NCBI GenBank assembly: GCA_947626365.1
Contig: CANQRW010000023.1
Span: 1-46,532 of the forward strand
Reading direction: 5' to 3'
Length of the DNA stretch: 46,532 bases
DNA from: an uncultured Lachnospiraceae bacterium
Lineage (GTDB): Bacteria; Bacillota; Clostridia; Lachnospirales; Lachnospiraceae
The position numbers and the translations under genes are program-made. Every line of letters begins with the position of its first letter. Position 1 is the first letter of the stretch. Under the pieces are notes generated by a model. The model was not told the origin of the DNA and searched no databases. It was given only the letters and a program-made list of their open reading frames with translations. This document shows positions 2,593 through 20,738 of this stretch, piece after piece.

Positions 2593-2928
2593 TTATCCAT
2601 TTTTCTTGTCTTTCGCCCTCAAAATATACCCGCGAATTTCAGCCTCCAGGGACGGCTCATCATTTGAAATAAACTCCAAGGTCTCATTCACTTCTTTGGG
2701 ATCATAATCATATTCCCTGACAAGTCCCCCAAATGCTTCCTCCAGAAAAGACGTTGGATATCCATACCCTCCGTCCAGTTCGATAATCAGTTTTTCCCTT
2801 TTCCTATGCGCCTCATTATATTTCGGAGCAAGCTGCGTCTCCCGAAACTCCTCGCCGGAAAAGTCCCCTTCATATCGATATCTTGCGCCGGGTGTTTCAC
2901 TAAAATCGTTGCAAATATTAATTTTCAT
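2593..2928 (-). CDS. DUF4325 STAS-like protein
   Basis: About 111 aa. The pattern fits the STAS-like DUF4325 family: a strand with RYRYEGDFSGEEFR, then KLIIELDGGYGYPTSFLEEA (about residues 45-64), where the usual ITSSF-type turn appears as YPTSFLEEAFGGL. STAS domains typically bind partner proteins, as anti-sigma antagonists do, and DUF4325 genes are commonly coupled to GHKL ATPases. I chose ATG 2928 over 2937 because AAAGGA lies 8-9 nt upstream of it and it follows the previous stop by 2 nt. With the 2937 start the genes would overlap by 7 nt. Either way it is translationally coupled to the ATPase gene. Confidence 0.75.
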   Translation of the reverse strand: MKINICNDFSETPGARYRYEGDFSGEEFRETQLAPKYNEAHRKREKLIIELDGGYGYPTSFLEEAFGGLVREYDYDPKEVNETLEFISNDEPSLEAEIRGYILRAKDKKNG

Positions 2929-2930
2929 AA

Positions 2931-3992
2931 TCAACATCCTTTCAATGTATCCAGATCAATGCTCCAATAGTACAGTGTTCCCTGCATGGCTTCTTTTAAG
3001 TCTCCTCCGCGGTAATTCTCCATGCCGACCTCAACATCCGCCCTATTACTAACTATATGAAGATCTTTAATACTTTCATTCGCACGATATTCACGAATTT
3101 TCGGTAACCCTTTCCCCCGGTAGTCCTGCTTTGTAGCGGTGCGGAATTCTCCATCTAACGCGGAAATCACATACTTGTTTTCTTCTTTTAGTCCCAGAAA
3201 ATCTACCCTTTCAGCAAAATTCTTCCTTACCGTTGAGGGTATCCCGCTCCCGGTATCCATGAAAATAAAGGAGACCTTTCCCTTTCCGTCATGCTCCACA
3301 AAGCAATACCATATAGGCATTAATACACCGCCTTCCTTATACGCATGCTTGTGGGTATTGGACATCAGCTCGATCATGGTATTGTACAGGAAACTGCACT
3401 TTCTGGTCGGAACATCCGCAATCCTGCAGACAAAATCCGACACCCTTTTTGCAGTTTTCGTATCGCACTTTCCTCCGGAAACGATCTGAATCTTATCCGT
3501 GTGTTTGTTAAGCCGCGCGTTTCCTCTGGGCTGTACATAATTATAAAATCCGGATTCCTTAAACTTCTTCCTTACTTCCCTGTCCGTTGGTTCATTGCCG
3601 GAAAAGCGAACGGATTTATCATACTTCCGGTCGTGATTATTCATTATGGCAAGAAGATACATCAGAGCGTCCGTCCGCAGCGTCGTCACATCCTCTATAT
3701 TAATAAACAACTCCTTTGAGGCTGTATTTTTCTTTGTCATCAGCGAAATAATCCGGTTAAAAAAATGTATTGTCTCAATCGGATTCTCTACGATACTGAA
3801 TACAGGTGGGGCTTTGAATTCGAATACATGTGTTTCCGCATTATATTCAGGTCTCGTTTTCAATTCCCTCTCGAATATAACCCGCTGCGCATGCATCGAC
3901 TTCCGCTTCTTTTTTCTTCTTGTCCGACGCCGGAGATTTTTTTCATTCTGGCGTTTTTTCCATTCACGATATTCGGGGGTATTTTTTTTCAT
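2931..3992 (-). CDS. GHKL (HATPase_c) ATPase with N-terminal basic region and STAS-like domain
   Basis: 353 aa. Residues 1-33 are extremely basic (RRRTRRKKKRK). Residues about 55-165 look STAS-like (LFINIEDVTTLRTDALMYLL, then an NHD and ESGFYNY pattern). Residues 200-345 are a Bergerat-fold ATPase: N-box ELMSNTHKHA (208-217), G1 DTGSGIP (246-252), G2 YRGKGLP (291-297) and a terminal GT (338-339). No dimerisation/phosphoacceptor (HisKA) domain, sensor or TM segment is present, so it is not an ordinary two-component kinase. It resembles anti-sigma-type or Hsp90/MORC-like ATPases. It heads a three-gene cassette. The ribosome site is weak (AAAGGATG about 14 nt upstream). Confidence 0.8.
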   Translation of the reverse strand: MKKNTPEYREWKKRQNEKNLRRRTRRKKKRKSMHAQRVIFERELKTRPEYNAETHVFEFKAPPVFSIVENPIETIHFFNRIISLMTKKNTASKELFINIEDVTTLRTDALMYLLAIMNNHDRKYDKSVRFSGNEPTDREVRKKFKESGFYNYVQPRGNARLNKHTDKIQIVSGGKCDTKTAKRVSDFVCRIADVPTRKCSFLYNTMIELMSNTHKHAYKEGGVLMPIWYCFVEHDGKGKVSFIFMDTGSGIPSTVRKNFAERVDFLGLKEENKYVISALDGEFRTATKQDYRGKGLPKIREYRANESIKDLHIVSNRADVEVGMENYRGGDLKEAMQGTLYYWSIDLDTLKGC

Positions 3993-5018: not shown

Positions 5019-7202
5019 CTATAGCTCTCGTTTATTAAACTCCCTCGTCACCTGATCTGCAAAATACTCCAGTCGATCTCGAATTTTTTGTGCAGTTATG
5101 GAAAAAATAAATCCTTTGTTCCGATCGGAAGACTTATGGATTAACGAGCATAGATTTTTCGCGCTTAGTATCTGCTGATCATCCATTGCTTCGACGTCCC
5201 TGGCAATATGATGGCGCATAGTCTTATTAAGATACTCATACATTTGGCCACAAATTCCGGATACCACATCCGATAGCTGCACCAATATATCAGTCTGTGA
5301 ATTGACAAAACTGTAATTGTCTACAAGTCTCTCTTTTTCATCGATAAAGATATATTGTTCAAACCACCGTATCATTTCTTTCTGTTCGTCAAAGATATGC
5401 TTCGATTTTCGGAAAAGTGCAACAAAATGCAGATAAAACTGCGCCAGATCATCAACCATTATATTCTTATCATTTCCGCGCAAGAAAAGAAGATCCCCGT
5501 TTTTCCCAGCACCCTTTATCATTCCAGAAACATACTTTAGCTCAGTACTCAATTCCCACCGGTTACCAAATAGGCCAACGATATCATTGCAAAAGTTCTG
5601 AATATCGGCCTCCTCTATGTCAGGATATCCATATTGCTTAAATACCTCCAATGTTTCCGAACTCTTCTCATGCAGAACATCATAAATCAGCTGTTTTAGG
5701 TGAAGGTTCGCAAACCTGATATCGCCCTTAAAGTCGCTTTCTGCATATTCATGCAGGGCAGAAAAATCAATTGCTGAATCAATAATATCCACTATCGCAT
5801 AATAGAACATATTGACCTGCGCAACATGAATGTACAGCCCCCTTTCTTCTATCAGCTCAAAGACTTTGTTCAGCCTCTTACGGTGCAGAGTACGAATAAA
5901 GTCATCTTCCGAAAATTGGGTTTTAAACTTAATCTCCTTTACCGTTTTCTGTAATCCCAGATTCTTTAAGAGCTCTGTCCTGTCAATATTGATATCCTCA
6001 TCCTTTGTCACGATACCTGCAAGGACGAAATCCCGGTCGATATCTGAATTGAAATTGTACCGACCGTTTTTCTCCTGAAGATAGAATTTCCCGGAAAAAT
6101 TGGACTCATCATAATAGAATCTCAGCTTTTCAGATCGGTCAAATGCGTCCAAAGGAGAAGCCGCTACGTGTGAAATACTTAACAACTTCTTCGATACCAT
6201 ATATTCATCAAAGGATCCTGTAAATCCACAATTACGGATGATCTGCATATAACTATCATTTCTGCTACCATGATCTCTGGCACTCAGATGCCACGTCACG
6301 TTCGAATTCACGCGCAGCAACTGCGCGATCCTTTCAATATACGGCAGATCCACGTTGCTAAAAGAAAAGCCGAAAGTGTATACTTCCGAAATACCGCTGT
6401 CTTTTATCTGCTTCCACAGTTTGGCGTTGTTATATAGAACGGCATACGTATCCTTTCGAAGATTCCTGATCGCTTTTTCAAGACTGTCTGCCGCCATGGT
6501 ATGTAACGTGTTGAATGACCGCTCCGAGTCGTCACCATGCCCAACAATGAGTTCTTCCCCCCTTTTTCTGAGTCCATGGAGATGAAACACCTGATTTCCA
6601 GGGATGCCATACACTTCTTCCAGTGTTTCCGTGTAATTAAAATTTATAAAAATGTCATCCGAACTCGCTCCTCTTCCCTGATTGCAGATCACATCCCAAC
6701 CAAAGGCAATTTTTTCCCTGCCGATCTCCACCGTATTGATCCAGTTGCTGAAGAGTTCCTTTATCATATACAAAGCATCCCTAAGTGCATCTGCATACAT
6801 CAGATAATCCTGCTCTGCATAAAAAAGTTGCTTATCCCTGCGACTGGAGGATATTTCATAATCATCATTGTCAGAGCCGTCATCTATAAGCATTGTCGCT
6901 TCATCAAACACCGCCTGCAAATCCAGATCATGCAGGGCGGTTTCGAACTCATTCCACTCTTCGTCAATCGGACTGCCATACTGCAAAAGCCACATCAGCA
7001 GCTTTAACAGTTCTTTCCTGTCATACACTTCCCCATGGTTTCCCATGGCCGAAAACGGAATCTCCGGAACTTTCTCAAGATTCTCTTTCGAGATTCCCAT
7101 ATCGTCCAACTGCCCGATCATCCAATCATGGAAATTGCTGTACTTAGTTGCATAACCGTGTGCAAGGTCAAAGCCATTGCCAATAATAAACAATCTTGCC
7201 AT
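5019..7202 (-). CDS. AbiH-family protein fused to a C-terminal DUF3800-like domain
   Basis: 727 aa from the chosen start. In the numbering of the longest frame (start 7226), residues 10-345 match AbiH, the abortive-infection family first known from Lactococcus: LFIIGNGFDLAHG (12-24), FINFNYTETLE (193-203), HLHG (215-218), GHGD (229-232) and FGFSFSNVD (285-293). From about 368 a second domain begins with RFYYDES (369-375), FVLAGIV (400-406) and KEIKFKTQF (430-438), and ends with LVQLSDVVSG (648-657). This is the DUF3800 layout: an N-terminal D-E-S strand and a C-terminal QLxD helix, an RNase H-like fold with putative metal-binding acidic residues (D373, E374, D653). Typical AbiH proteins have no such tail. 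I chose ATG 7202 because AbiH proteins start directly before the LFIIGNGFD strand. The gene lies 113 nt after the tubulin/vWA operon and could be co-transcribed or have its own AT-rich promoter in that gap. Confidence 0.8.
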   Translation of the reverse strand: MARLFIIGNGFDLAHGYATKYSNFHDWMIGQLDDMGISKENLEKVPEIPFSAMGNHGEVYDRKELLKLLMWLLQYGSPIDEEWNEFETALHDLDLQAVFDEATMLIDDGSDNDDYEISSSRRDKQLFYAEQDYLMYADALRDALYMIKELFSNWINTVEIGREKIAFGWDVICNQGRGASSDDIFINFNYTETLEEVYGIPGNQVFHLHGLRKRGEELIVGHGDDSERSFNTLHTMAADSLEKAIRNLRKDTYAVLYNNAKLWKQIKDSGISEVYTFGFSFSNVDLPYIERIAQLLRVNSNVTWHLSARDHGSRNDSYMQIIRNCGFTGSFDEYMVSKKLLSISHVAASPLDAFDRSEKLRFYYDESNFSGKFYLQEKNGRYNFNSDIDRDFVLAGIVTKDEDINIDRTELLKNLGLQKTVKEIKFKTQFSEDDFIRTLHRKRLNKVFELIEERGLYIHVAQVNMFYYAIVDIIDSAIDFSALHEYAESDFKGDIRFANLHLKQLIYDVLHEKSSETLEVFKQYGYPDIEEADIQNFCNDIVGLFGNRWELSTELKYVSGMIKGAGKNGDLLFLRGNDKNIMVDDLAQFYLHFVALFRKSKHIFDEQKEMIRWFEQYIFIDEKERLVDNYSFVNSQTDILVQLSDVVSGICGQMYEYLNKTMRHHIARDVEAMDDQQILSAKNLCSLIHKSSDRNKGFIFSITAQKIRDRLEYFADQVTREFNKREL

Positions 7203-7315
7203 GAAAACATCGCTTTCTACAAACAAATTATTTTATAAATATATCTCATTTGGAGCATAAATGGCCTTTGCTATCCAAAAGAAAAACAATGTGGCGAATA
7301 ATTTTATATGCCCCC

Positions 7316-8002
7316 TCAACGATAAATTATTTCAAACGACTTAAGGCACCAGAAGTCTGCGGCATTAGCCCCAACCACAGTAGATAATCCAGTTTCAGCC
7401 GAAAATCCAAAATACAGGTTTCCATCCTGAAAAGCCTCCGCGAATTCTTCTTCATCTATTTCTTTTAGAAAAGTCATAACCGCATTCTGTATCCAACTGG
7501 AATCCCGATCCGGCTCTTGTATTGTGAAAGGATTTAAAAGTGCAGTGTTTTCTTCTCTCTGCAAAAAATCGCTAATCAAACCAATACGTTCCATACCCGT
7601 TAAAATCCAAACACTTCTTTTTTCTTTTCCAATCAGATGAGCTAGGAAATTTCGATAAACCAATGGTAAAATCCAAAACTCTGCATTTTCCCACTGCTCG
7701 TCTACATTATATCTTAATTTGCCAAAATATTTAATAGGAAATAGGTTGATTATAATATCCGCTTCCCGAATCACATCCGCATGATCCTGCATTTGCACTA
7801 CTGCCTTGACCGGGTTCAGGTCAATACAACGACATTCGGCTGTAAAAGTCGCTTGTATAAAGTCGTCAATAACCATTTTATAACTCTCAATGGATATTGC
7901 TACTTCATGCAGCAATTTACATTGTTTGTTCTGACGTTCCATACAATTTTTAACCTGCTCCAGATATTTTACTGTTCCGCTTCCTAAAACCACAATTTTC
8001 AT
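7316..8002 (-). CDS. Unrecognised protein, fifth gene of tubulin/vWA operon
   Basis: 228 aa from ATG 8002. An upstream ATG at 8032 would extend into the previous gene; starting at MKIVVLGSG places it 2 nt after that gene's stop. The N-terminus (MKIVVLGSGTVKYLEQVKNC) looks like the first beta-alpha unit of a Rossmann-like fold, and ADIIINLFPIKYF (about residues 80-92) resembles a strand ending at a ligand loop. No catalytic motif is recognised. The C-terminal third contains an acidic stretch (LKEIDEEEFAEAF). Position and coupling argue that it works with the tubulin-like GTPase and vWA protein. Confidence 0.6.
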   Translation of the reverse strand: MKIVVLGSGTVKYLEQVKNCMERQNKQCKLLHEVAISIESYKMVIDDFIQATFTAECRCIDLNPVKAVVQMQDHADVIREADIIINLFPIKYFGKLRYNVDEQWENAEFWILPLVYRNFLAHLIGKEKRSVWILTGMERIGLISDFLQREENTALLNPFTIQEPDRDSSWIQNAVMTFLKEIDEEEFAEAFQDGNLYFGFSAETGLSTVVGANAADFWCLKSFEIIYR

Positions 8003-8004
8003 AG

Positions 8005-8598
8005 TCAATTCACTTTCAATTCCTTCATGCATTTTTCATCTGCATAAAAAACAATTTTCGTGCCCTCTTTTATATTGATTGTCAGTCCATGCTCATCAAT
8101 CCTGCCGGAGTATACGTGATTATCATTGCCCCCTTGGAATATATAATAGATTTTGGCCGTATTTTCGTTGCCTTCCGGAAGTTCAATATTATAATCTATT
8201 TCTTCGAATTGACGCGACCACCAAAACTTCCATCTTTTTCTTTTTTCTCTTTTTATATGGATCGCAACCTCTTTAACTTTTCGTTTCAAACAGATAGGCT
8301 GCCTCTGATTTGAAATATAGAGAACCCCATCTTCTATCAGTGCCGGATATAACGCATATCCTACTGTCGTCTCAGAGGCCAATATCCTATGCGATAAACA
8401 AAGATTCTTATGGTATAAAATGGGTCTCTTCCTCTCCTGCCGGTAGTCCTCAAGGGTTTCATCATCCATCTGCGGAAACAGCGCACACAAACAATATCGA
8501 CTTCCAAGTGCAAAATCCCACCGTATAATTTTGCCGGCTTCTAACTTTAAGCAAATAATCCCAGGGTCAACATATGGTGTCTGCTCAATTTCCCACAT
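8005..8598 (-). CDS. Unrecognised 197-aa protein, fourth gene of tubulin/vWA operon
   Basis: No family recognised. It is mostly beta-rich in appearance, with a basic tryptophan-rich patch in the middle (KREKRKRWKFWW, about residues 115-126) that could touch a membrane or nucleic acid. No signal peptide or TM segment. The ribosome site GGAGG lies 6 nt before ATG 8598, and the gene begins 13 nt after the stop of the 635-aa gene. A similar basic W-rich patch (RRWWKRKP) occurs in that neighbour, which may hint at a shared binding surface; this is inference. Confidence 0.6.
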   Translation of the reverse strand: MWEIEQTPYVDPGIICLKLEAGKIIRWDFALGSRYCLCALFPQMDDETLEDYRQERKRPILYHKNLCLSHRILASETTVGYALYPALIEDGVLYISNQRQPICLKRKVKEVAIHIKREKRKRWKFWWSRQFEEIDYNIELPEGNENTAKIYYIFQGGNDNHVYSGRIDEHGLTINIKEGTKIVFYADEKCMKELKVN

Positions 8599-8611
8599 TT
8601 ATTGCCTCCGT

Positions 8612-10519
8612 CTATTCATGAACAGTGTTAAAAAAATTGTATATCGGCAGCTGTTCCAAGCTCTTAATATGCTGACAATACAGAATTGCAGAATTCCTGT
8701 TATTCTGTCGGCTCAGAAAAGCAGATACTAAGTCCTCATTGTAAATTTCTCCCCGCATTTGTAAAACTCTCATATCTTCAATCTGCAAATGCTGTTCATT
8801 TTCCGCATTATCGTCTTGACATTTCTGCTCCACCAAACCAATTATATTATATTGCTTGTTAATCTCAGAAAGCAGTTGTTCGACCATGAAACAAAAATCT
8901 GCTTTCTCAGTATTCCCCTGCAAAAAATAATTGTAAATCCTTTCTCGTACAGTATCTATTGCCTCTTTTTTCTCACTCAGCAGATGAATCATATCTCTCA
9001 ACAGCCTGTCCAGTTTCCAGCGCCGTCCTTCATCTGCGCTAAGCAAAAGCTGTTCCCAGTCCCAAAATGCTGTTTGAAAAAAAGTGTTCACCATCTGATA
9101 CATAAATGATATATGCCTAATCCAGTTGTCAACGTATCTTTCAATTTCCGAAAGGCTTTCCCTCATTATATCATAATAATAGCATTCTGCCTGATAACTG
9201 CCCCATTCCATTAAAATATCCAGCTGATAGTCATATGGCTTCCTTTTCCACCATCTTCTCTTTTGAAGTCTCTTTTCACTCAACCACTGCTCCAGCCGTT
9301 CCCTTGCCGCTCGGGTCTCTTCGTTGTTCTTTTGCTGGTATGGGGTAAGCTCGGATTTCAAAAAAGCCGATAATTGTTCTATATATTTTTTATCCAGCAG
9401 CTTCGACATGTTTCCGAGCATTTTCTCATTAAGCCACGCTGAAACATATGTCTGGCAATACATCGTCGTATGCTTTGCTGCACATTTTCGCGTTTCATTG
9501 TAATTGATTCTCATATAGTCCAGATAATTATCCCCATAGTATTGACTTAGGAAATCGCCCGGAATACAATTTCTGGCATTTTCAATTGTACTTTCTGCAT
9601 AATATCCGATAAATGGAAGGCCATTCTGCAGAGCAATCAGTTCTTCTCTCAGTTTTATATTCAAAGACTCCAATTCCAGCCTGCGGCCCCTAAAGTATTT
9701 CCCTTTCGGTTCCTTTATTTGAAGCAGCTTTTCAGCAAATGCACACTTCAATGCCGTTATTTTGTCATTATCCTCAAGAAAAAGTTCTTTCTTCCCAAGT
9801 GTAAATAACTTGCTTCCGTCTGCCAGCGCCAGTTCTTGAAGTTCCTGAAATAAATCTCTCCTTTCATTTTCCGATAGATTACATACACCGTTTCCGAGTG
9901 CAATTGTATCTATCGCCAATTCATAAATCTGTTCTGTTTCCGCCGCTACGACCTCCTCGCTGGAGATCTCAGAAAGAAGAAATACGAAGCGGACTGCCTT
10001 CTCTAACTGTACTGCATTAAGTTGTTGCCAAAAATCCGGAATACTCCTCCGTTGATTTTGAAGGAGGAAATAATCTTCTTTCACTATGTAATACAAGTCA
10101 AAATTAATACAATTTAAATAGGCCAGATGAAATGCTTCATATAGCGCTCGGATTATTGCCGGGAAATCAAGCTTTCCTTGATATCTACCAACCAGTATGC
10201 AAACGTTAATATCTCCTTTGCGCTGATATTTTATAAGCTTCGATTTTCGAACTGCCAAATCGAGATTTCTTTTACTTTCGTCATCCCATTCGACTGAGCC
10301 GGCAACGTTTAACGCCAAATCAACTGCGAAATGAAGGCCCTCAATATTAGCCGAGTCTTTTCCCAATTTAAGTAAAATCACACTATTAGAAGTCCATTGA
10401 TGCAAACCTGGCACTTTCCCAATTTCTGGCGGTATCTCGCCGACAAACACCATACAAACTGGATTTTGCAGTATTTTCCTTTCATCAGGCATTAAATCCA
10501 TTTTCTGATCCCGCATCAT
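8612..10519 (-). CDS. Unrecognised 635-aa largely helical protein, third gene of tubulin/vWA operon
   Basis: No signal peptide or TM segment. The first 200 residues look alpha/beta (VCMVFVGEIPPEIGK, NSVILLKLGKD, NVCILVGRYQGK), a Rossmann- or vWA-like pattern without a clear MIDAS. Residues about 200-635 are predominantly helical, with charged coiled-coil-like runs and a basic RRWWKRKP patch. AAGGAG 9 nt before ATG 10519 supports the start, 35 nt after the tubulin-like gene. Large helical partners accompany FtsZ-like/vWA pairs in other genomes. I infer an adaptor or regulator of the tubulin-like filament, with no direct evidence of function. Confidence 0.6.
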   Translation of the reverse strand: MMRDQKMDLMPDERKILQNPVCMVFVGEIPPEIGKVPGLHQWTSNSVILLKLGKDSANIEGLHFAVDLALNVAGSVEWDDESKRNLDLAVRKSKLIKYQRKGDINVCILVGRYQGKLDFPAIIRALYEAFHLAYLNCINFDLYYIVKEDYFLLQNQRRSIPDFWQQLNAVQLEKAVRFVFLLSEISSEEVVAAETEQIYELAIDTIALGNGVCNLSENERRDLFQELQELALADGSKLFTLGKKELFLEDNDKITALKCAFAEKLLQIKEPKGKYFRGRRLELESLNIKLREELIALQNGLPFIGYYAESTIENARNCIPGDFLSQYYGDNYLDYMRINYNETRKCAAKHTTMYCQTYVSAWLNEKMLGNMSKLLDKKYIEQLSAFLKSELTPYQQKNNEETRAARERLEQWLSEKRLQKRRWWKRKPYDYQLDILMEWGSYQAECYYYDIMRESLSEIERYVDNWIRHISFMYQMVNTFFQTAFWDWEQLLLSADEGRRWKLDRLLRDMIHLLSEKKEAIDTVRERIYNYFLQGNTEKADFCFMVEQLLSEINKQYNIIGLVEQKCQDDNAENEQHLQIEDMRVLQMRGEIYNEDLVSAFLSRQNNRNSAILYCQHIKSLEQLPIYNFFNTVHE

Positions 10520-10554
10520 GTTGATCAGCTCCTTATGATTCTTTCACTGAATCC

Positions 10555-13023
10555 TTAGTCACTTTTAGAAAGCTCTTTATCTATTATATTGCGTTGTATA
10601 TACATGCGGATAAACATATTTTTTGCCAATTCGTCGTATTCATCATCACTATAGCTTTCCTTTTTTTCAATATCTCCTATCGGGATTCCCTCTTCATCTC
10701 CCATTTTGTCTATACAATACCGATGGGATTTATCATTAAATGTTATTATTTTATTCTCTTTCGCCTTACCAAACACCTCGCCATAATGTCGATTCCTTTC
10801 CTTTTCCTCTGGTCTGATAAACCCAGCATCAGCAGTCCACTTTGACTCACAATAAGGCGATGGCAGCTCCCTCCAGTCTTTACCGTCTACAGCATACAAG
10901 TGGAGGCCATCCTTATTCTGAGCCTTAATATAGCAGTCCTCAAACTCCTTAATTCCTTCATAATTATATAACGCATATCCTGGAGAATAAATCACTTTTG
11001 CCATGCGCCCGGTGATACCCTGTTTATCGATATCTGGTTTCTGATCCGATTGCTCCTGCCACTTTTCAGCCAGTTTACCCAATCCTTCCTCTCCCGGAAC
11101 TGATAAAATTTCGTAAACAGTATATTCCTCCGAATTCGTCGGCGCCATGGGCCATAATGTACTCTCTTCGTTAAGCTGACTAAATATTTCTTTCACTCGT
11201 TCAACTTTCTTTTGATCTCCATCCATATAATCCAGATTTTTCATAATCGAAAGGCTACCACTTTCTCTAAAATAATCAGACAACAGTTCTGCCACATAAT
11301 CCGACAGCCAGACGATATCTGCATCTACATTGGCAACGCCCAGCCATTTATCCTTATTCTCCTGAATATTCTTCAGCAGTTCGGCCGAAGCTTTTACCGT
11401 GCTCTCCTTGTATTGAATTGTTGAACGTATTTTCTCAAATTCCTCTCTACCGGCCAGCCATGTTTCATCCATATCAAGCAGATTATACTGTGTGCAGCGG
11501 TTATAAAGAATGTCCATGCATTTCTGGATTGTCACATAGTCCGATCGGAGAGCTTCTAAATCAGCTATAAATTCAAATAACCATTCCTTGTATTCGCCAA
11601 AGATTTTTTTGTATCGTCCTTTTCTGTAACGTTTAAAGATCTGTATGCGGCTGCTCCTATACTCTTCCCTAAATAGTGCGTCCAAGCCATAATTCATACT
11701 TTTCTTACGATCATCTTTTTCCTGTAAGAAGAGTCTTAGATCATTATAAGTTTCAAAATGCAGCTTTCGCCCGGCGCTCTCCGCATCCCATTTATCTTTG
11801 ATCTGCCGTTTTATAGATCTTACGAGCCGCAGAGCTGTGTAAACACTATTTATTTTTGTCTGAAATCCTTCAAACTCTGCTTTCATCCACGGGCTGTCCC
11901 TCAAAGGCGGCTCAGGTTTATCTATCCCCATCATTTCTGTAAATACATCCCTCAGCCATAGACTGTAATAATAGTCTCTGGGAAGATATTTCGCCTTTGC
12001 TCCTATTGATATATAATGAGCAAATGTAAAGTCTTTTGAATCTTTGTTATGAACAATATTGCTCTTAGCTGCTTGAATTCCAAAACACCCGTCTCTCTTC
12101 TCCTGCATTTCTGTAAGGATATACTCCGAAATTTTCTGATATATGGAATCTTCTGACCCAGCGATATTACGCCCTGACCGCATCGCTCCGACCAGAACGC
12201 AATAATCAAAAATATTGGCCTTTGAATGAATGGATCCAATATGGCCCGGATACGTCTGATCAAACGACTGGTGGTACCGCTCCAGCATCATCAGATACTC
12301 AAGTTCTTTCAATGCTGCAAATCCGTTCCGTTTAATATTCTCGATCGTTATATTCTTTAATCCTGGTTTTATACATGTTACATCTGGCATCACTATGATT
12401 CCATTCAGTTCTACCGTTTCGCAGATATTTCTTATCATGTAACTAACATCCACGAACATCCCGGATCCCGTTCCCCCGCCAATTCCGGTAATCAGGAATA
12501 CTTGAATCCGTTTCTTACTCTGGTCACAGCCAATGCTTAGCCGGCCAATCCGTGTCTTAATAGCATCATAAATACGCTGAGCGTTTAAAAACAATATCAG
12601 CCGCCCTGCCTGACGAACTCCTGCTGCTCCATTCATAATACGAAAAGGGGACATATTTTTATCCAGCCACTCTGTAACCCCGGGAGGAAATATCTTAGGA
12701 TTCTTTTCACCTTCTCTAAGCAGCATCGCGGTATCTGCGCTTTGAATTACAATCCTGTCCTCCTTTCTGAAGAGATCACTATATGCAATGTTATCTGCGT
12801 CAATAAGCATATATTCTAAATGGGAAGTGTTTTTATGTGTATAGATAGAATCTATACGATTTTTTAATATTGCCAACGCCCTAATGCCACTCCCGCCAAT
12901 GCCGACAAACATAGTCGGAACTTCCTGCAGCCGTAAGCTTCCATCCTGCGGTGCCCGCAAAAAAATACTGTCTCCATGCTTGTCTCTCCACTCATTATTT
13001 ATGTAACTCTGCACATTCACCAT
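10555..13023 (-). CDS. Tubulin/FtsZ-superfamily GTPase (Tubulin_2 / FtsZ-like type)
   Basis: 822 aa, cytoplasmic. Tubulin-superfamily loops are readable in order: T1 MFVGIGGSGIRAL (38-50), MLIDADN (72-78), T3-like NGAAGVRQAGR (131-141) and the T4 G-box ITGIGGGTGSGMFVD (178-192). This is the GGGTGS/T tubulin signature that binds the GTP phosphates. The protein is far longer than FtsZ (about 350-400 aa): the N-terminal 350 or so residues hold the GTPase and the rest is a helical, charged extension. The length and the GAAGxRQAGR loop fit the Tubulin_2 family, not cell-division FtsZ. ATG 13023 has AGGAGG 5 nt upstream, and the gene starts 9 nt after the vWA gene, so the two are tightly coupled. 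It probably polymerises or switches in response to the membrane partner; the function is inferred from architecture. Confidence 0.85.
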   Translation of the reverse strand: MVNVQSYINNEWRDKHGDSIFLRAPQDGSLRLQEVPTMFVGIGGSGIRALAILKNRIDSIYTHKNTSHLEYMLIDADNIAYSDLFRKEDRIVIQSADTAMLLREGEKNPKIFPPGVTEWLDKNMSPFRIMNGAAGVRQAGRLILFLNAQRIYDAIKTRIGRLSIGCDQSKKRIQVFLITGIGGGTGSGMFVDVSYMIRNICETVELNGIIVMPDVTCIKPGLKNITIENIKRNGFAALKELEYLMMLERYHQSFDQTYPGHIGSIHSKANIFDYCVLVGAMRSGRNIAGSEDSIYQKISEYILTEMQEKRDGCFGIQAAKSNIVHNKDSKDFTFAHYISIGAKAKYLPRDYYYSLWLRDVFTEMMGIDKPEPPLRDSPWMKAEFEGFQTKINSVYTALRLVRSIKRQIKDKWDAESAGRKLHFETYNDLRLFLQEKDDRKKSMNYGLDALFREEYRSSRIQIFKRYRKGRYKKIFGEYKEWLFEFIADLEALRSDYVTIQKCMDILYNRCTQYNLLDMDETWLAGREEFEKIRSTIQYKESTVKASAELLKNIQENKDKWLGVANVDADIVWLSDYVAELLSDYFRESGSLSIMKNLDYMDGDQKKVERVKEIFSQLNEESTLWPMAPTNSEEYTVYEILSVPGEEGLGKLAEKWQEQSDQKPDIDKQGITGRMAKVIYSPGYALYNYEGIKEFEDCYIKAQNKDGLHLYAVDGKDWRELPSPYCESKWTADAGFIRPEEKERNRHYGEVFGKAKENKIITFNDKSHRYCIDKMGDEEGIPIGDIEKKESYSDDEYDELAKNMFIRMYIQRNIIDKELSKSD

Positions 13024-13032
13024 GTAAACCTC

Positions 13033-16000
13033 CTACCTTTGTATATCGATGCAGCCATTGATTACTTTCTGTTGTGACTTTCTTTCTTCTGTATAATAAA
13101 AGTCTCCATCGTTATAAGTAACAGTTATAGGGTTCCCCTTTACCGTGCAGTCTTTACGAACTCCGGTTTTGGCCTTGGGCCATATGGTTTTTTCCTTCTT
13201 CCCATTATATCGTATAATAATCTTAACGGCTGTGCTTCGATGATATAATCCAACAATTAATGGAAAAGTCGCTATAGACAATATAATGACAATCATAATG
13301 ACAACCAACTTATCCGGTTCTTCTTTGACGACAAGTTTCAGTTCCGGCGACTCTTCTCCATATTTGTCTATCACTGTGATTGGCAGCTCAGTTGTTTTCC
13401 ACATATGAACTGGTAATAACGATTTTCTTCTAATTTTGATCGTTATCTTGTCTTTCATCTGCACGTTTTCAATATTTTTGGGAACCACTTCAAAATATTC
13501 ATTATCTCCGAATTTGACATCAAAATCATGATCATCCGGGTCAACAAACCAGCCCTTTATGTTTTCCTCCGCAAAACACTCTCCCCATGGCAGACATGCA
13601 ATGCGCACTACATGATCCTGAAACAAATCTGTCGCCTTCGGGGCATTATTCAACACAGAAAGTGTCTTCTTCAAACTCTCATGCCCTGGAACTTCAATAT
13701 TTAGCTCATAGTCACCTTTAGCCTTTGTTGTAAACTCATATTCCGCTTTTCCCGAAGAAAAATCCAGCTGTGTTTCCTCACATATTTCACCGTTAGGATT
13801 CGTGACCGTAATTTTCCCTTCATCCACATTAATTCCATTCTTTAATCTAATATCTACATGAACGGGCTTCCCCAGGATCACTTCTTTAGGTGCTGTAACG
13901 CTAAATGTTGAATTATTCACCTGCAAAGATTTGGAGATATCAGTATCAGTTCCGTTCCTTTTTAAGGTTATAATATATTTCTTTTCTTCGGAGAAACTGG
14001 TTTCAATCTCATAGTATTCTCCTTCTGGCGATAATTCAAGCTCACCTTTAGAATCTCCATCAACAAATAGTTCCCATTGATCCTCCATATACTCTTCGCA
14101 GATTTCTGCCTTAACCGTTTTCTTTTCAGAGCCAACCATAGAATATGGCGCCAGATGGAATGTAACAGTTTCCCCACATTTGACATCCTCGGGACTGACT
14201 ATTAGTTCATAAGATACATCTGACGCAGACACTTCCAGCGCTGAAGTTTCCACCGTAAAGCTTGTCACCCCAACTATATTATCCTCAGAAACGCTGTCAT
14301 CATATGTGGCGCCGATTGTAATATATTTGCTTCCTGCACTTCTCAGAATGTACTCGCCCGCAAAGCTCCCATCTGGTTCGACTTCAATCTCTTCATAACT
14401 GTCATCAGCAAGATCCCGGATCCAGAGCTTCAAATATTCCTCGAAATCCATATCCGAGTTCTCCTGATTGTCATTTATTTTCCCTGTAATCCGTACTGTC
14501 TCACCCAGGCATCCGATCCAAGATCCACGGTCAAGCAGGATATCCACATCTGCATAGGAATAAAATGCAATATCAAACTGCATTTCAGCTTCATCGAAGC
14601 ATTGGATTATATAGATCCCAGGCTCCAAATCAAACAGTTTAACCGTCGCGGAGATGCCAGAGTTAATTACTAAGCAGTCGATCTGCGTTCCATCTTTTTT
14701 CTGCACACGAATTTTCTTATTCTGAATTATAGATTCAACCAATTCACGTTTTTCTTCAATATTGTCCAGATGCGGCGTAACATTTATAATCGTTTCGCTG
14801 GTTCCAGGTATCTTAAACTCCAGTTCTGATAATATATTATCGTATATAACTGAATCCACACGAAATACGGCCTTAAAGTAATCATCGTACTTTTTTCGGA
14901 TCTGCTTCATAACATCCGCATCTTTCCAATTGAGTTCACACAAATCAGCCTTAAATAGCTGCTCTTTTGGATGCCGCTCTCTCAAACGATTTTGGAAATT
15001 TTTCATTCCGTCCGCTACTTCCGTTATCTCTTTTCTTTTATCATCCGGCACCGCAATCCCTAAATACTTTCTAATTACTTCTTTATCTGCCGCATTATCA
15101 TATTCATACTGCAACCGGTTTCCAAGAGATTCTTTACTCGGTATAAGTCCTAAGAAATAGCAGTCTTCGGGAATCCTTTCCGCAGCCGTCATTAAGTCTT
15201 TATAGGATTCTATATCTTCTTCAAACCCCTTTTTGGTATTCACATCAATTAAACCATCTGTAATGAACAGAACGATCTTACGGCTTTTCTTCTCTGTACC
15301 CCTTTGCATGTCTTCCAGAATATCGGCACAATATTCCATCGCTCTTCCAATATCAGTATTACTTCCATCGTATTCCGTATTATTTACATTGTTTTTGATG
15401 TTATCCAGCAGACTTTGATTCTTATAATCTTTAAGATATTGCCAACTTCTTCCGTTATTTTCAGTTATTGCATACGGTTGATCCGCAAACGAAACAACCG
15501 CGATTTTAAGTGGATATTGTGCTTTGGGTATCCGGTCAATAAACTCGTCAATCATATAGACTACCTGTTCATATCCAGCGACCTGTTTCATAGATCCACT
15601 TACATCATGTACTATAACAATATGATATTCTTCATCGTCTTGCGTACCGACAGGCTGATTAGCTGGAGATTCTTCATCGTCCTCCGTACTGGCAAGCTGA
15701 TTGGCTGGAGATTCTTTGAGCTCTACCTTGTCACTGTTTTTATCAGCACGTGCCTGTGTTTGCTCAGTTGAACTATCTTTCCCCTTATTCAGTATCTTTG
15801 GCTCCTGTTCTTCATCCTGAACTTCTCTTACCCACACCACTAATTCTGTTTCCCACAGTTTTCCTTCAAAGAGTTGCCGTACAAAGACCGGTATACTTAT
15901 CCAAGGCGATAATTTTTCAGGTTTCTGAGTATATACATGTTTAACCTTATATGTTGCCTCTGCCTTTATAGATATGATTCCTCCGTTCTCGCCTAGGATT

Positions 16001-16377
16001 GTTGCACTACTATCTATTAATTCTTCCCCCTTCTTTGTGGTTCCTACTTGTTGCAAACTTTCCCAGTTTTTATCCTCCATGCCATACAGAACTCCCCACA
16101 AAAAGCCAAAATACATTATCAAAATGCAGAAAAAAATACGAATTCCTTTACGATCCTGCGACTTTTCTCTTTTCCTCAAAAAAGATAAGACTACTTCTAA
16201 CACTCCAATTCCCAAAAGACTCATTAACGTTTTTACTTGTTTCAAAAGCACCACGGGGCTTGTTATAACCTGAATAATATAGACTTTTGAATAAATGTCA
16301 TATTCATAAACTACTACGCCCAAAATGATAAAGAACAAAAAGCCAATAATATATCTCCATTTTTTCTCTTTATCCAT
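13033..16377 (-). CDS. Membrane-anchored vWA protein with Ig-like repeats, first gene of tubulin/vWA operon
   Basis: 1114 aa. TM segments lie at about 8-27, 47-66 and 79-99, and a fourth at about 1023-1046. The positive-inside rule (KEKKWR, LRKREKSQDRKGIR and YHRS as inner loops) puts residues 100-1022 outside and the last 68 or so residues in the cytoplasm. The extracellular part carries a low-complexity linker with two 14-aa repeats (222-249), a vWA domain with MIDAS DVSGSM (258-263), SNTD and ITDGLID, and then several beta-rich Ig-like modules (about 550-1010). The cytoplasmic tail is a small beta-rich domain that could contact the tubulin-like protein. GGGGGAA lies about 7 nt before ATG 16377. 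The gene heads a five-gene operon after a 433-nt non-coding stretch. Role inferred: surface sensing or adhesion linked to a cytoplasmic filament. Confidence 0.85.
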   Translation of the reverse strand: MDKEKKWRYIIGFLFFIILGVVVYEYDIYSKVYIIQVITSPVVLLKQVKTLMSLLGIGVLEVVLSFLRKREKSQDRKGIRIFFCILIMYFGFLWGVLYGMEDKNWESLQQVGTTKKGEELIDSSATILGENGGIISIKAEATYKVKHVYTQKPEKLSPWISIPVFVRQLFEGKLWETELVVWVREVQDEEQEPKILNKGKDSSTEQTQARADKNSDKVELKESPANQLASTEDDEESPANQPVGTQDDEEYHIVIVHDVSGSMKQVAGYEQVVYMIDEFIDRIPKAQYPLKIAVVSFADQPYAITENNGRSWQYLKDYKNQSLLDNIKNNVNNTEYDGSNTDIGRAMEYCADILEDMQRGTEKKSRKIVLFITDGLIDVNTKKGFEEDIESYKDLMTAAERIPEDCYFLGLIPSKESLGNRLQYEYDNAADKEVIRKYLGIAVPDDKRKEITEVADGMKNFQNRLRERHPKEQLFKADLCELNWKDADVMKQIRKKYDDYFKAVFRVDSVIYDNILSELEFKIPGTSETIINVTPHLDNIEEKRELVESIIQNKKIRVQKKDGTQIDCLVINSGISATVKLFDLEPGIYIIQCFDEAEMQFDIAFYSYADVDILLDRGSWIGCLGETVRITGKINDNQENSDMDFEEYLKLWIRDLADDSYEEIEVEPDGSFAGEYILRSAGSKYITIGATYDDSVSEDNIVGVTSFTVETSALEVSASDVSYELIVSPEDVKCGETVTFHLAPYSMVGSEKKTVKAEICEEYMEDQWELFVDGDSKGELELSPEGEYYEIETSFSEEKKYIITLKRNGTDTDISKSLQVNNSTFSVTAPKEVILGKPVHVDIRLKNGINVDEGKITVTNPNGEICEETQLDFSSGKAEYEFTTKAKGDYELNIEVPGHESLKKTLSVLNNAPKATDLFQDHVVRIACLPWGECFAEENIKGWFVDPDDHDFDVKFGDNEYFEVVPKNIENVQMKDKITIKIRRKSLLPVHMWKTTELPITVIDKYGEESPELKLVVKEEPDKLVVIMIVIILSIATFPLIVGLYHRSTAVKIIIRYNGKKEKTIWPKAKTGVRKDCTVKGNPITVTYNDGDFYYTEERKSQQKVINGCIDIQR
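15631..15714 (-). repeat. Two tandem 42-bp repeats in the vWA gene linker
   Basis: Encodes ESPANQLASTEDDE followed by ESPANQPVGTQDDE. It is in-frame and lies just before the vWA domain, so copy-number change by slippage would lengthen or shorten the linker without breaking the frame. Confidence 0.75.
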
Positions 16378-16810: not shown

Positions 16811-17599
16811 TCATATACTACTATCCGCCCCTTCCTTCGTTTCACACAAAATATTATCCCTAATCTCCGCAAATTCCGGTTTCGTCCGATACAGATAATC
16901 AGCTATCACCTGCATCAGTTCAAAGTCATTTTCATGGTCAAGGTCAAGGACGGCCGTATCATACATCTCAATAATCTCATAATACCCACCATTAAATCCG
17001 CCGCCTGACTTCAAATGTTCCGGCTTATACGCATAAAGGGATGCATTCATATCATAAATAACCGGGGCCTGTTGACGAGAGGTAAATTGTGATGTGATTA
17101 CCTTTCTGGCGCCTTCTTTTTCCGTATATGTAACCTGATTAAAATACGGATTTCTTCTTGCGGTTGTAACTGAATAGGTAATATCAGCCCCTGTTTTCAA
17201 GTGTCTGTCCACCAGATGCGTCAGATCCTCCACAGTTCTGAGCGGTGACGTGATATCCAGATCCACTGCCACATCATACTGATACCCTTTCTTTTCTTCC
17301 ATCCGAAGAATGCAGTCCAGAATAACGTCTTTCTTCCCAACCGCATCGCCGCTGAGTTCCGGACTCCTCTTAATCAAGTTGACTTCCATAAAAGGATTCC
17401 TGTCCATAAGCTGCAGCAGTTCATCACTGTCCGAGTTGATAACAACGTCCCAATCCGTCCCCTGACCATATTTTTTCACATACAGATCAATAGCTGACAG
17501 CGAGTAATATGCCAACGGTTTTCCACAGAACAATCTAAGGTTTTTATTCTTAATCCCTTTCGAACCAGCCCGGCCGCATATGGTAAATAGTAACCTCAT
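16811..17599 (-). CDS. legF: CMP-nonulosonic acid cytidylyltransferase (NeuA/LegF type)
   Basis: Activates a free nonulosonic acid with CTP to the CMP-sugar used by a transferase. 262 aa. The N-terminal signature RAGSKGIKNKNLR (10-22) is the CTP-binding loop of CMP-sialate/legionaminate synthetases, and DLDITSPLR (113-121) is the conserved substrate/metal segment. RSPELSGD (78-85) is also typical. The start overlaps the preceding oxidoreductase stop by 4 nt (ATGA), so it is translationally coupled. It is the last gene of the polysaccharide run. The exact sugar (sialic, legionaminic or a derivative) is inferred from legB/legC upstream; NeuA would be the alternative label. Confidence 0.85.
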   Translation of the reverse strand: MRLLFTICGRAGSKGIKNKNLRLFCGKPLAYYSLSAIDLYVKKYGQGTDWDVVINSDSDELLQLMDRNPFMEVNLIKRSPELSGDAVGKKDVILDCILRMEEKKGYQYDVAVDLDITSPLRTVEDLTHLVDRHLKTGADITYSVTTARRNPYFNQVTYTEKEGARKVITSQFTSRQQAPVIYDMNASLYAYKPEHLKSGGGFNGGYYEIIEMYDTAVLDLDHENDFELMQVIADYLYRTKPEFAEIRDNILCETKEGADSSI

Positions 17600-18525
17600 T
17601 CCAAATACCCCCTTGTTATCTTAAGCGTCTGACATGCCTGCGGGATTGGATTATTGTTCTTTTCCTTTCCCTCAATAATACGGAAAAAGTTCTGCAGCTC
17701 TTTCTTCTGCATGGAATCTCGCTCCTCATGTAGATCGACGATATTCCCAGACCTCCGGTAAGTGATTGTCTGACCGATCAGATCCGCCTCGATTGTATCC
17801 TCTTTCCCGAACAGCTCTATCTTCCGCTCCGCATACCGTCCGAAATAGTCCAGATGCAGTTCCACAACCTTATCTTTGTATTCGGCTATGTAAACCGCCA
17901 GATCATCACTATCAATTTCCAGATCGGATTTTTTTGTTATGAAACACTTCACCTGTTCCGGCACTCCTACAAGTTCACAGATATAATCCCACTCATGGAT
18001 CAAGTCAATAGACACCCCGCCGCCCAGTTCCTTTTTGGCGCTGTATGTCTCCCGGTAATCCGTCCCCGGTCTCCATTCCGGAAGATAGCTGGATGAGATG
18101 CAACGGATACTATAAATCTGCGTGAAATCCACCGAGCGCTTCAAGTACTGGATCACATTGGAATAACGCAGCGGACATGCCACATAATAAACGCTGTCCT
18201 CTCTCAGATGAAGTTCCTCCCAGTCTTCCTGCCCTGTTTCAAATACTGGTTTCTCAATAAAGAAATGTCGCCCGTTACCATGTACCCTCTGCAGGGTCTG
18301 ATAATGCAGACGTGTCGGGTTCGTGATAAAGATAACATCGTAATCTTTCGGCAGACTTTCGAAATCGTGATATGTATTCCGTATGATCTTTTCCAATTCC
18401 GATCCCATGCTTCCGCCTTTCCCCGAACGCAGCACATCGATCTCTATTTCGTCACCATACAGTTCTTTTAGGTTTCTGGTATGTCGCTTGGCAATCGAAC
18501 CCACGCCGATAAAACACACTTTCAT
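17596..18525 (-). CDS. Gfo/Idh/MocA-family NAD(P)-dependent oxidoreductase
   Basis: 309 aa. The N-terminal Rossmann motif GVGSIAKRH (7-15) binds the nucleotide. EKP (91-93) is the conserved lysine motif after the Rossmann sheet, and GGGVSIDLIHEWD carries the D-x-x-H active-site pair of the family. Such enzymes oxidise or reduce sugar hydroxyls or ketones; adjacent to LegF, related enzymes occur in flagellin-glycan loci. The substrate is unknown. It overlaps both neighbours by 4 nt and is probably made together with the sister enzyme at 18522-19526. Confidence 0.8.
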   Translation of the reverse strand: MKVCFIGVGSIAKRHTRNLKELYGDEIEIDVLRSGKGGSMGSELEKIIRNTYHDFESLPKDYDVIFITNPTRLHYQTLQRVHGNGRHFFIEKPVFETGQEDWEELHLREDSVYYVACPLRYSNVIQYLKRSVDFTQIYSIRCISSSYLPEWRPGTDYRETYSAKKELGGGVSIDLIHEWDYICELVGVPEQVKCFITKKSDLEIDSDDLAVYIAEYKDKVVELHLDYFGRYAERKIELFGKEDTIEADLIGQTITYRRSGNIVDLHEERDSMQKKELQNFFRIIEGKEKNNNPIPQACQTLKITRGYLE

Positions 18526-19526
18526 CTCACGGTTCCCCCCGCCTCAATACTGTCGATCAGCCGAAGCACCTTTTCATCATCCTCATAACCATACGGTTCT
18601 TCGTCCTGATGTCCGGACAGGATATCGAGGAATGTCTCGATTTCCTTTCTGTACGCGTTCTCGATGACGAAAGACTGGTAATGATCCATATGCTCTGCCT
18701 GCTCATACAGGTGTATAGGAACCATTTTCTTCTGCTCTCCATCATAATTGAACAGACCGGATGGTGTCCCGTCCCAGCGAATATGCAGCCCATCCCCATA
18801 AATCTCCAGATACCTTATCGCGGCAGGGCTTACAACATCCACTGCCATGACTCCTCTGGCCCCACTTTCATGCTCCATCTTCAGCAGATAGTTGTCGTTA
18901 TAATCAATCGCCAGCCCGCTCATCCTGTCCGACAGAACATCAAACGATTTTACCGCTCCAAATGTCTGAGTCATCCACGGCAGCTCAATGGCAAATATCT
19001 CCCGGCAACCATTAGACCGGCGCTCATTCACAAAGAAATCCTTATAGTTCTCCCACGGATGCCAATCCGGCAGGTACTGCCCAACATGATAAATGTAGTC
19101 CAGACGGCCCGAATACGCTGAAACCTTCTCACGAATGTAGGCAACTTCTTCGCGGTACAGCGGGGTAGATGATAAAAACAGAGTCAATCCCCGTTCCTTC
19201 GCCAGGCGGATATTTTCCGCATAACCATCAGAAACAAGATTGATCTCTGTAAACACATGCCATCCGTTCAGAAGACACTGCTGTACGATCCCGCAGTGGG
19301 AAAGGGGAGACGTGCAGACGAACGCCGCAAAGATACCCGGAGCCTCTTCCACTGCCTGCTTTATCGAGTCCACCGTCTGAATTCCAAACAGGTTCACCGC
19401 TTCCAGACGCCGTTCTTCTCTGGCGTCCATCCCGACGATTTCCAGTCCATCTATTAAAGAAAGCTGTTTCAACAGACGGATTCTCCTTTTTCCCATTGAA
19501 CCAAGCCCGATTACAAGTGCTTTCAT
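18522..19526 (-). CDS. Gfo/Idh/MocA-like oxidoreductase with altered active-site motifs
   Basis: 334 aa. The Rossmann loop LGSMGKRRIR (8-17) is intact. However, the position of the usual EKP reads EIN (94-96), and the segment corresponding to D-x-x-H reads REIFAIELPW, so both canonical catalytic residues look replaced. It may use different chemistry or be a structural partner of the canonical paralogue that follows it with a 4-nt overlap. It starts 51 nt after the NeuC-like gene. The fold assignment is firm; activity is uncertain. Confidence 0.75.
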   Translation of the reverse strand: MKALVIGLGSMGKRRIRLLKQLSLIDGLEIVGMDAREERRLEAVNLFGIQTVDSIKQAVEEAPGIFAAFVCTSPLSHCGIVQQCLLNGWHVFTEINLVSDGYAENIRLAKERGLTLFLSSTPLYREEVAYIREKVSAYSGRLDYIYHVGQYLPDWHPWENYKDFFVNERRSNGCREIFAIELPWMTQTFGAVKSFDVLSDRMSGLAIDYNDNYLLKMEHESGARGVMAVDVVSPAAIRYLEIYGDGLHIRWDGTPSGLFNYDGEQKKMVPIHLYEQAEHMDHYQSFVIENAYRKEIETFLDILSGHQDEEPYGYEDDEKVLRLIDSIEAGGTVR

Positions 19527-19577
19527 TTATATCATCTCCCTGAATTTTCTATATGAACATCAGATTCTTATCTATAT

Positions 19578-20738
19578 CTATTGATTCTCTGGCTTAAACC
19601 CGATATCATAAAATCCCTTTTTTAGATTGATCTTATCATGCAGTAAAAAGTCCTTGATGATTTCCACTATCTTCCCTGATGTAGTTCCATCACCATATTC
19701 ATACGAAGCAATATGATCCATCTGCACAGCCTGATCGATTGCTTTCACAATGTCGTCTTTCACCGGCTGACAGTTCACTATTGTTTTAGCCATCATTCTC
19801 CCGCTTTGACGGTCCCCGATATTAACAGTAGGCGTACCTAAAACCGGGGCCTCAATAATCCCGCTGGAAGAATTACCAAGCACAAATCTGGCATACTTTA
19901 CTGCGCTTAGATACCGTACCATACCTAAATTGGCAACAAAAAATGTGTTCTTATGTCCGGCGACAAAATTGCGCAAGGTTTCATTTACTATATCTCCCCC
20001 CGCGTCTGCATTGGCCTCCGTAATAACATAATAAAACTCACCACACTTCTCCATGGCCGCACACAGTTCACCCACCTGTTCCGCCACGGACTGTTCCAGT
20101 GTAACCGGATGGAACGTGACTACCGCATAGGGTGCCCCGGAAGGAATCCCGATTTCGCGTCTGATATCTTCCTCAGACAGCAACGGCGCATGTAATATAT
20201 TCTCTGTCCCTAAGCTTCCCACACAGAAGACTCTTTCCGGCGATTCTCCCAGCTGTATTACACGTTTCCTGTATAGCTCTGTCGAAGTAAAATGCAGATA
20301 GCCCATTTTAGACAGCGCATGACGGACACAGTCATCCACTGCGCCCGCCGTTACTTCCCCGCCATGGATATGGCCGATCGGTATGCGCTCATTCATTGCG
20401 GCGCAGGCAATGGCCAGCGTTTCTGTCCGGTCTCCTGACATAACCAGCATATCCGGTCTGCAACTTCTAAAGCAGTCCGCAAACCCTTTCAAAGCGTTCG
20501 CCATTGTCAAAGATATCCCATACTCCGTGTTGTCCTCCGACAATATAGGAATGCTCTGTGCTATGGGGAAGCCGTCCGCTTCGATATCCCGGATTGTATA
20601 ATCGTGTTTATGAGATAAATGTGTCCCCGTAACAAGCAGTTCAAGCTGCAGATCCACATCCTCATAAATCGCACGTATTAATGGAATCAGCATACTATAT
20701 TCCGCCCGCGTTGCCGTAACCACCGCCACTGTTTTCAT
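19578..20738 (-). CDS. legG: UDP/GDP-sugar 2-epimerase, hydrolysing (NeuC/LegG type)
   Basis: 386 aa. The hydrolysing 2-epimerase releases the NDP and gives the manno-configured amino sugar used by NeuB/LegI. Motifs: VVTATRAEYSML (6-17), SGDRTETLAIA (about 100-110), IGHIHGGEVTAGAVDD (about 121-136) and GNSSSGIIEAP (about 313-323). The HIHGGE motif and direct coupling to neuB (4-nt overlap) separate it from the non-hydrolysing WecB encoded at 35650-36747. In a legionaminate route the substrate is the 2,4-di-N-substituted bacillosamine-type NDP-sugar; in a sialate route it is UDP-GlcNAc. The presence of legB and legC favours the former. Confidence 0.85.
   Translation of the reverse strand: MKTVAVVTATRAEYSMLIPLIRAIYEDVDLQLELLVTGTHLSHKHDYTIRDIEADGFPIAQSIPILSEDNTEYGISLTMANALKGFADCFRSCRPDMLVMSGDRTETLAIACAAMNERIPIGHIHGGEVTAGAVDDCVRHALSKMGYLHFTSTELYRKRVIQLGESPERVFCVGSLGTENILHAPLLSEEDIRREIGIPSGAPYAVVTFHPVTLEQSVAEQVGELCAAMEKCGEFYYVITEANADAGGDIVNETLRNFVAGHKNTFFVANLGMVRYLSAVKYARFVLGNSSSGIIEAPVLGTPTVNIGDRQSGRMMAKTIVNCQPVKDDIVKAIDQAVQMDHIASYEYGDGTTSGKIVEIIKDFLLHDKINLKKGFYDIGFKPENQ

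Follow-up and report, generated by a model that had tools for sequence, protein, structure and literature searches.

A five-gene transmembrane vWA/tubulin operon in a Lachnospiraceae genome, likely a reduced derivative of DO-GTPase-linked systems

Organization of the locus

The stretch of DNA analyzed here (the window; 46,532 nt) is contig 23 (CANQRW010000023.1) of the draft genome of an uncultured Lachnospiraceae bacterium, which is 3.5 Mb in size, 98.5% complete, and assembled in 144 contigs. Five uninterrupted open reading frames (ORFs) on its minus strand span positions 7316-16377 (Table 1). They encode a membrane vWA protein, a Tubulin_2 protein, and three smaller proteins. On balance, the set is likely to be a reduced derivative of the Bacillota systems that combine a tubulin, a transmembrane (TM) vWA protein, a DO-GTPase, and a GAP1 protein.

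The five genes are intact and closely spaced and form an operon, with coordinates and spacings as given in the initial annotation of this DNA. The gaps between genes 1 to 5 are, in order, 9, 35, 13, and 2 nt, the last measured to the 228-aa start of gene 5; the 238-aa start creates a 28-nt overlap with gene 4. Purine-rich, GGAGG-like stretches precede the starts of genes 1-4, and a clear ribosome site is absent before either start of gene 5. Chance ORFs were ruled out because five long frames adjoin one another, two of them have strong domain matches, and four have ribosome sites. A promoter scan performed no better than shuffles (35 vs 35.1). A terminator scan returned 12 candidates against 7.0 in shuffles.

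Table 1. Positions of the operon genes and of flanking features in the window
Feature	Position	Strand	Length	Description
Gene 1	13033..16377	-	1114 aa	Membrane vWA protein
Gene 2	10555..13023	-	822 aa	Tubulin_2 (FtsZl1) protein, GTP box intact
Gene 3	8612..10519	-	635 aa	Probable second tubulin without GTP box
Gene 4	8005..8598	-	197 aa	Member of ~210-aa family, probable adaptor
Gene 5	7316..8032	-	238 aa from first ATG (228 aa from ATG at 8002)	Probable DO-GTPase remnant
AbiH/PDC-S51 fusion gene	5019..7226	-	735 aa	89 nt after gene 5
STAS-like DUF4325 ORF	2593..2937			Downstream of operon
Integrase-like ORF	1467..1892			Downstream; short, resembles integrase N-terminal domain
Sugar-metabolism genes	16811..20738			Upstream of operon

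The membrane vWA protein and the tubulin

Gene 1 matched the Pfam VWA domain (6.7e-11, residues 253-376) and carries the DVSGS motif of the metal site (MIDAS) at residue 258. A hydropathy script placed hydrophobic stretches at residues 10-28, 42-60, 79-97, and 1015-1033. The predicted layout is three N-terminal TM helices, a vWA domain on the outside, a long ectodomain, a last TM helix, and a cytoplasmic tail. The membrane vWA protein and tubulin of the initial annotation were recovered. The Ig-like modules that it had placed in gene 1 are not firmly supported, as the best domain match there was Filamin (0.0033, below the cut-off). The vWA profile of the operon family described below matched gene 1 at 1.9e-17. 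Relatives of the operon have two types of vWA protein, and gene 1 mixes the three N-terminal TM helices of the second type with the last TM helix and tail of the first; it may be a fusion of both types.

Gene 2 matched Pfam Tubulin_2 over residues 39-359 (2.5e-48; 165.6 bits vs a cut-off of 27), and its translation contains the GTP-binding glycine box GIGGGTGSG (GGGTGSG). A search of solved structures by sequence found none for gene 2. Gene 2 is the sole recognizable intact nucleotide-binding protein of the operon.

Neither a phage nor a plasmid origin was supported. For the tubulin, phages yielded no match at E 1e-5, and plasmids yielded three distant tubulins of the Thermus/Meiothermus type. 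The plasmids concerned (NC_014213.1, NC_019387.1, and NZ_CP021131.1) are large and come from Allomeiothermus, Thermus, and Meiothermus.

Related operons

An earlier scan of GTDB contigs with a single tubulin query found no relative. A scan with five aligned tubulin domains found at least 127, of which 80 loci were kept. In the commonest gene order, vWA and tubulin genes are followed by one for a 590-860-aa protein, a second vWA gene, one for a ~210-aa protein, and two more genes. Precisely this order, with nothing after its last gene, occurred in 29 of 79 loci. In one locus (L055), Pfam identified the last two genes as DO-GTPase2 (1.3e-9) and GAP1-M (2.2e-4, below the cut-off). For gene counts, 11 of the 80 loci were dropped, one (L084) lacking a labelled tubulin and the rest having less than 6 kb after the tubulin. 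The remaining 69 loci contained an upstream vWA in 64 cases, a position-3 gene in 62, a position-4 gene in 54, a DO-GTPase in 63, and a GAP1 in 61. All four downstream genes (position 3, position 4, DO-GTPase, and GAP1) were present in 49 of them. The locus counts are not independent, because 47 of the 80 loci carry Paenibacillus in their record name and the scan was seeded with the tubulins of such operons.

Closer to the window, Tubulin_2 was found in 18 of 299 sampled genomes of the family (16 over the cut-off), and the tubulin of the window used as a query matched 9 of 391 genomes of the class and 4 of 26 of the genus, the own genome being counted each time. The closest full example (L149) comes from another genome of the same genus (G681). 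On one strand, it encodes a vWA protein of 680 aa, a tubulin of 1139 aa, proteins of 743 and 206 aa, a DO-GTPase of 499 aa (PF19993, 3.1e-9), a GAP1-like protein of 779 aa, and a second vWA protein of 432 aa. The window shares with L149 the order vWA, tubulin, position 3, and position 4, and its gene 4 is homologous; unlike L149, it has no intact DO-GTPase gene and no GAP1-like or second vWA gene. Gene 2 aligned with the L149 tubulin at residues 34-350 and 556-770 (33% identity over 362 columns) and is 317 residues shorter. In another genome of the genus (G686), at least five tubulin genes lie within 20 kb of one another on a single contig, and a different contig carries a tubulin gene with position-3, 228-aa, DO-GTPase, and GAP1-like genes after it (loci L150, on contig 14, L139, and L152).

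A second type of vWA/tubulin operon was found in the family and the class (L028-L032, L034, L036, L057, L058, and L153). It consists of a vWA-related gene (F8), a tubulin of ~1130-1250 aa, mostly a ~650-aa gene, and a ~1000-1550-aa gene; in L028, the partner genes have no Pfam match over the cut-off. In a third arrangement (L025, L026, L027, and L035), short Tubulin_2 proteins of 800-843 aa each lie near a related 530-604-aa protein, with no recognized vWA or DO-GTPase neighbour.

A tree was built from 111 tubulins thinned to 56; two loci, a copy of L053 (L115) and a part of L150 (L139), were left out. Gene 2 was placed among DO-GTPase-linked and "other" tubulins and next to the tubulin of a diverged DO-GTPase operon, L137 (support of 90 in the Shimodaira-Hasegawa-like approximate likelihood ratio test, SH-aLRT). 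It sits on a long branch (1.69) and is not placed precisely with certainty. Like the window, the second operon type has a vWA-related gene beside a Tubulin_2 gene; unlike it, this type has other partners, no gene 4, and tubulins on a separate branch. It was ruled out as the parent of the window operon on account of that separate branch (SH-aLRT 100) and the missing gene 4.

Gene 4 anchors the operon to a known family

Gene 4 was matched by phmmer to the 206-aa protein of L149 (5.5e-6 among 1497 proteins). A jackhmmer search from gene 4 gathered 58 proteins, each labelled as a ~210-aa family member; one further row without a label is presumably gene 4 itself. In a rank test with simple profile scoring, only 3 of 150 background proteins scored as high as gene 4 or higher. 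Among the loci fetched, the ~210-aa family is confined to tubulin/DO-GTPase operons. On sequence grounds, gene 4 can be firmly placed in this family, and the membership therefore anchors the operon to the tubulin/DO-GTPase kind of system. Its role is probably that of an adaptor.

Genes 3 and 5

Genes 3-5 matched nothing over the cut-off in Pfam, NCBIfam, or PADLOC, and none of the five genes had a PADLOC match below E 0.1. The initial annotation had called the three proteins unrecognized. This is true of the libraries, but each protein has a counterpart at its position in relatives: a second tubulin without a GTP box for gene 3, a small protein specific to the system for gene 4, and one resembling a DO-GTPase for gene 5. 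Position and rough size are conserved for all three genes, and sequence is firmly conserved for gene 4 but not for genes 3 and 5.

Gene 3 is probably a second tubulin without a GTP box, as suggested by its position, family-level similarity, and a structural model. It occupies the place of the 590-860-aa position-3 protein of relatives. This protein family resembles tubulin at the family level, and a GTP box was found in none of the 76 position-3 proteins of the fetched loci. The model of gene 3, made with the proposed relatives as its alignment, displays the expected tubulin fold. Searched by sequence against solved structures, the position-3 alignment matched a designed bundle at 0.037 and a hypothetical protein at 0.72. 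A position-3 query matched 2 of 299 family genomes, the own genome and one poor match with stops.

Gene 5 is probably the remnant of a DO-GTPase whose motifs for nucleotide binding were lost. It sits at the DO-GTPase place in the gene order of relatives and aligns with DO-GTPases collinearly, strand by strand. The P-loop (GxxxxGK[ST]), present in 77 of 79 DO-GTPases of the loci, is replaced by GSGTVKY, and DxxGE and TKxD are also missing. An active GTPase was ruled out because of these missing motifs. Given the proposed relatives as its alignment, gene 5 was modelled as a small GTPase fold without P-loop or TKxD. Against 92 profiles, those of DO-GTPases ranked 1-2, but with E-values of 0.016-0.031. 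Among solved structures, a search by sequence returned one meaningless match (E 0.47).

Two proteins labelled as DO-GTPases in other loci have no P-loop (L122, 10249-11577; L124, 10304-11491), and each lies beside a labelled copy that has one. The L122 protein has no GTPase Pfam match.

Absence of an active DO-GTPase and GAP1

The Pfam families DO-GTPase2 and GAP1-M matched nothing over the cut-off in the own draft genome. These families are weak here: the GAP1 of L055 falls below the cut-off, and the GAP1-like protein of L149 has no Pfam match at all. Purpose-built profiles were used for this reason. In three control genomes that had not been used in building them, the DO-GTPase profile recovered its protein in all three and the GAP1 profile in two. 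In the own genome, the DO-GTPase profile gave only a match of E 0.129 on another contig, and the GAP1 profile gave none. The absence of GAP1 and of any active DO-GTPase from the genome, as judged by these profiles, is supported but not proven.

Flanking genes

The gene that follows the five, and that may or may not belong to the operon, joins AbiH (Pfam, 4.3e-49) to the PADLOC candidate PDC-S51 (1.3e-95). The initial annotation had taken AbiH as a sign of a possible defence role. A counterpart is absent from the fetched neighbourhoods of relatives (no match at E up to 1; same-genus best 0.11), and the adjoining gene can be considered only a hint of such a role. Further downstream lie the DUF4325 ORF and the integrase-like ORF (PF13495, 5e-5, below the cut-off), which possibly mark a mobile or integration site. 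The genes upstream of the operon, which encode a cytidylyltransferase, two GFO/IDH/MocA oxidoreductases, and a UDP-GlcNAc 2-epimerase, resemble a surface-sugar cluster.

Origin and possible function of the operon

How did this gene set arise? We favour, as the likelier course, the reduction of a tubulin/TM-vWA/DO-GTPase/GAP1 system. The probable losses and the placement of gene 2 in the tubulin tree make reduction likelier than a primitive state. The usual GTP switch of the system is probably dead in the window operon. Several points weigh against this reading. The reduced five-gene set was met once only, and a DO-GTPase or GAP1 gene may have been overlooked because the assembly is in 144 contigs. 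The position-3 cluster F18, taken alone, has no tubulin match (E 0.14). The model of gene 3 has a mean predicted local distance difference test score (pLDDT) of 59 and Foldseek E-values above 0.001, and the folds of both models may have been imposed because the proposed relatives served as their alignment. In the rank test, 31 and 32 of the 150 background proteins equalled or exceeded genes 3 and 5, respectively. A jackhmmer search from either gene gathered only the query itself, their hhalign E-values (0.016-0.059) are at chance level for 92 tries, and a search of the own genome with the DO-GTPase profile, run up to E 1, did not pick up gene 5.

These points leave room for another origin: the vWA/Tubulin_2 operon would be specific to the lineage, and genes 3 and 5 would be newcomers that occupy the second-tubulin and DO-GTPase places by coincidence. 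Neither gene has significant similarity to its counterpart, and the models lean on the alignments supplied. Such an origin is unlikely. Gene 4, a firm family member, lies between the two genes; the order and rough sizes are those of L149, except that gene 5 is half as long; and gene 5 aligns strand by strand, with both models having the expected fold. It is more improbable still that the operon is the decaying remnant of a once complete system, with GAP1 lost, the tubulin shortened, and no present function. The shortened tubulin and its long branch, the lost motifs of gene 5, the missing GAP1, and the single occurrence would all fit decay, whereas the five open, closely spaced frames, four with ribosome sites, and the retained GTP box and MIDAS motif argue against it. 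A further alternative, which could be true without being the probable one, is about function alone and is compatible with a reduced derivative. Here, a vWA-anchored tubulin polymer remodels the membrane outside any conflict, as proposed by Makarova and Koonin. The membrane vWA protein and tubulin, the adjoining sugar-metabolism genes, and the abundance of the system in Paenibacillus are in line with it; the patchy spread of Tubulin_2 in the family and of the window tubulin in the genus, and the AbiH/PDC-S51 gene next door, are not.

If the operon is a reduced derivative, how might it work? In a tentative model, the vWA ectodomain would bind a surface or cell-wall ligand via its metal site, and the last TM helix would relay the resulting change to the tail of gene 1. 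The tail would nucleate or cap a membrane-bound polymer of genes 2 and 3, in which gene 2 would be GTP-driven and gene 3 a non-hydrolysing subunit, with genes 4 and 5 acting as adaptors. As the separate GTPase switch would be dead, switching would be left to the GTP cycle of the tubulin alone. The output could be local envelope remodelling or the containment of an invader. The full version, in which a vWA receptor steers a copolymer of GTP-binding and GTP-box-less tubulins, the dead DO-GTPase serves as a scaffold, GAP1 is lost, and GTP hydrolysis by the filament becomes the decision step of a conflict system, is rather doubtful.

Within the DO-GTPase-linked branch, no operon met here is simpler than the five-gene set, with neither GAP1 nor an active DO-GTPase. 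This set, in which the core of sensor and tubulin stands apart from the GTPase switch, could be tested by itself. The findings also suggest that these Bacillota operons generally pair a GTP-binding tubulin with one without a GTP box; mixed tubulin polymers elsewhere are a parallel. The probable dead GTPase encoded by gene 5 is the most interesting and the least certain point.

Comparison with known systems

The initial annotation presented the operon as a candidate undescribed system. This does not agree with two papers: Makarova and Koonin (2010; PMC2875224) described the vWA/tubulin pair, and Kaur et al. (2020; PMC7159879) described operons with more genes and predicted a role in conflict for them. 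No experimental study of a Tubulin_2/vWA operon was found in searches of the open-access literature, one of which was too broad to be informative. In the former paper, FtsZl1/vWA pairs are proposed to act in membrane remodelling, with a reviewer proposing transport or signalling, and frequent partners are a P-loop GTPase, protein kinases, and OmpA-like proteins (PMC2875224). The window operon resembles these operons in having a Tubulin_2 gene beside a membrane vWA gene with a MIDAS motif and further lineage-specific genes. It differs in that none of these frequent partners was found in it, unless gene 5 is the dead remnant of the GTPase.

The closer parallel, itself related to the FtsZl1/vWA operons, is the tubulin theme of the GAP1-N2 systems, predicted to be GTPase-centric conflict systems whose effectors are argued to assemble as multimers against invaders; firmicute operons with two genes each for tubulin and vWA proteins are reported there (PMC7159879). 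Compared with the theme, the window operon lacks GAP1 and an active DO-GTPase, and it has a single vWA gene rather than two, a shorter tubulin, and a gene 3 without a GTP box. It shares with the theme a tubulin gene beside that of a TM vWA protein with the vWA domain predicted outside, and the fetched relatives have their genes in its order. It also has the ~210-aa gene, a feature of these operons recognized in the present analysis. The kind of system is already known, and its unusually stripped form is what is new.

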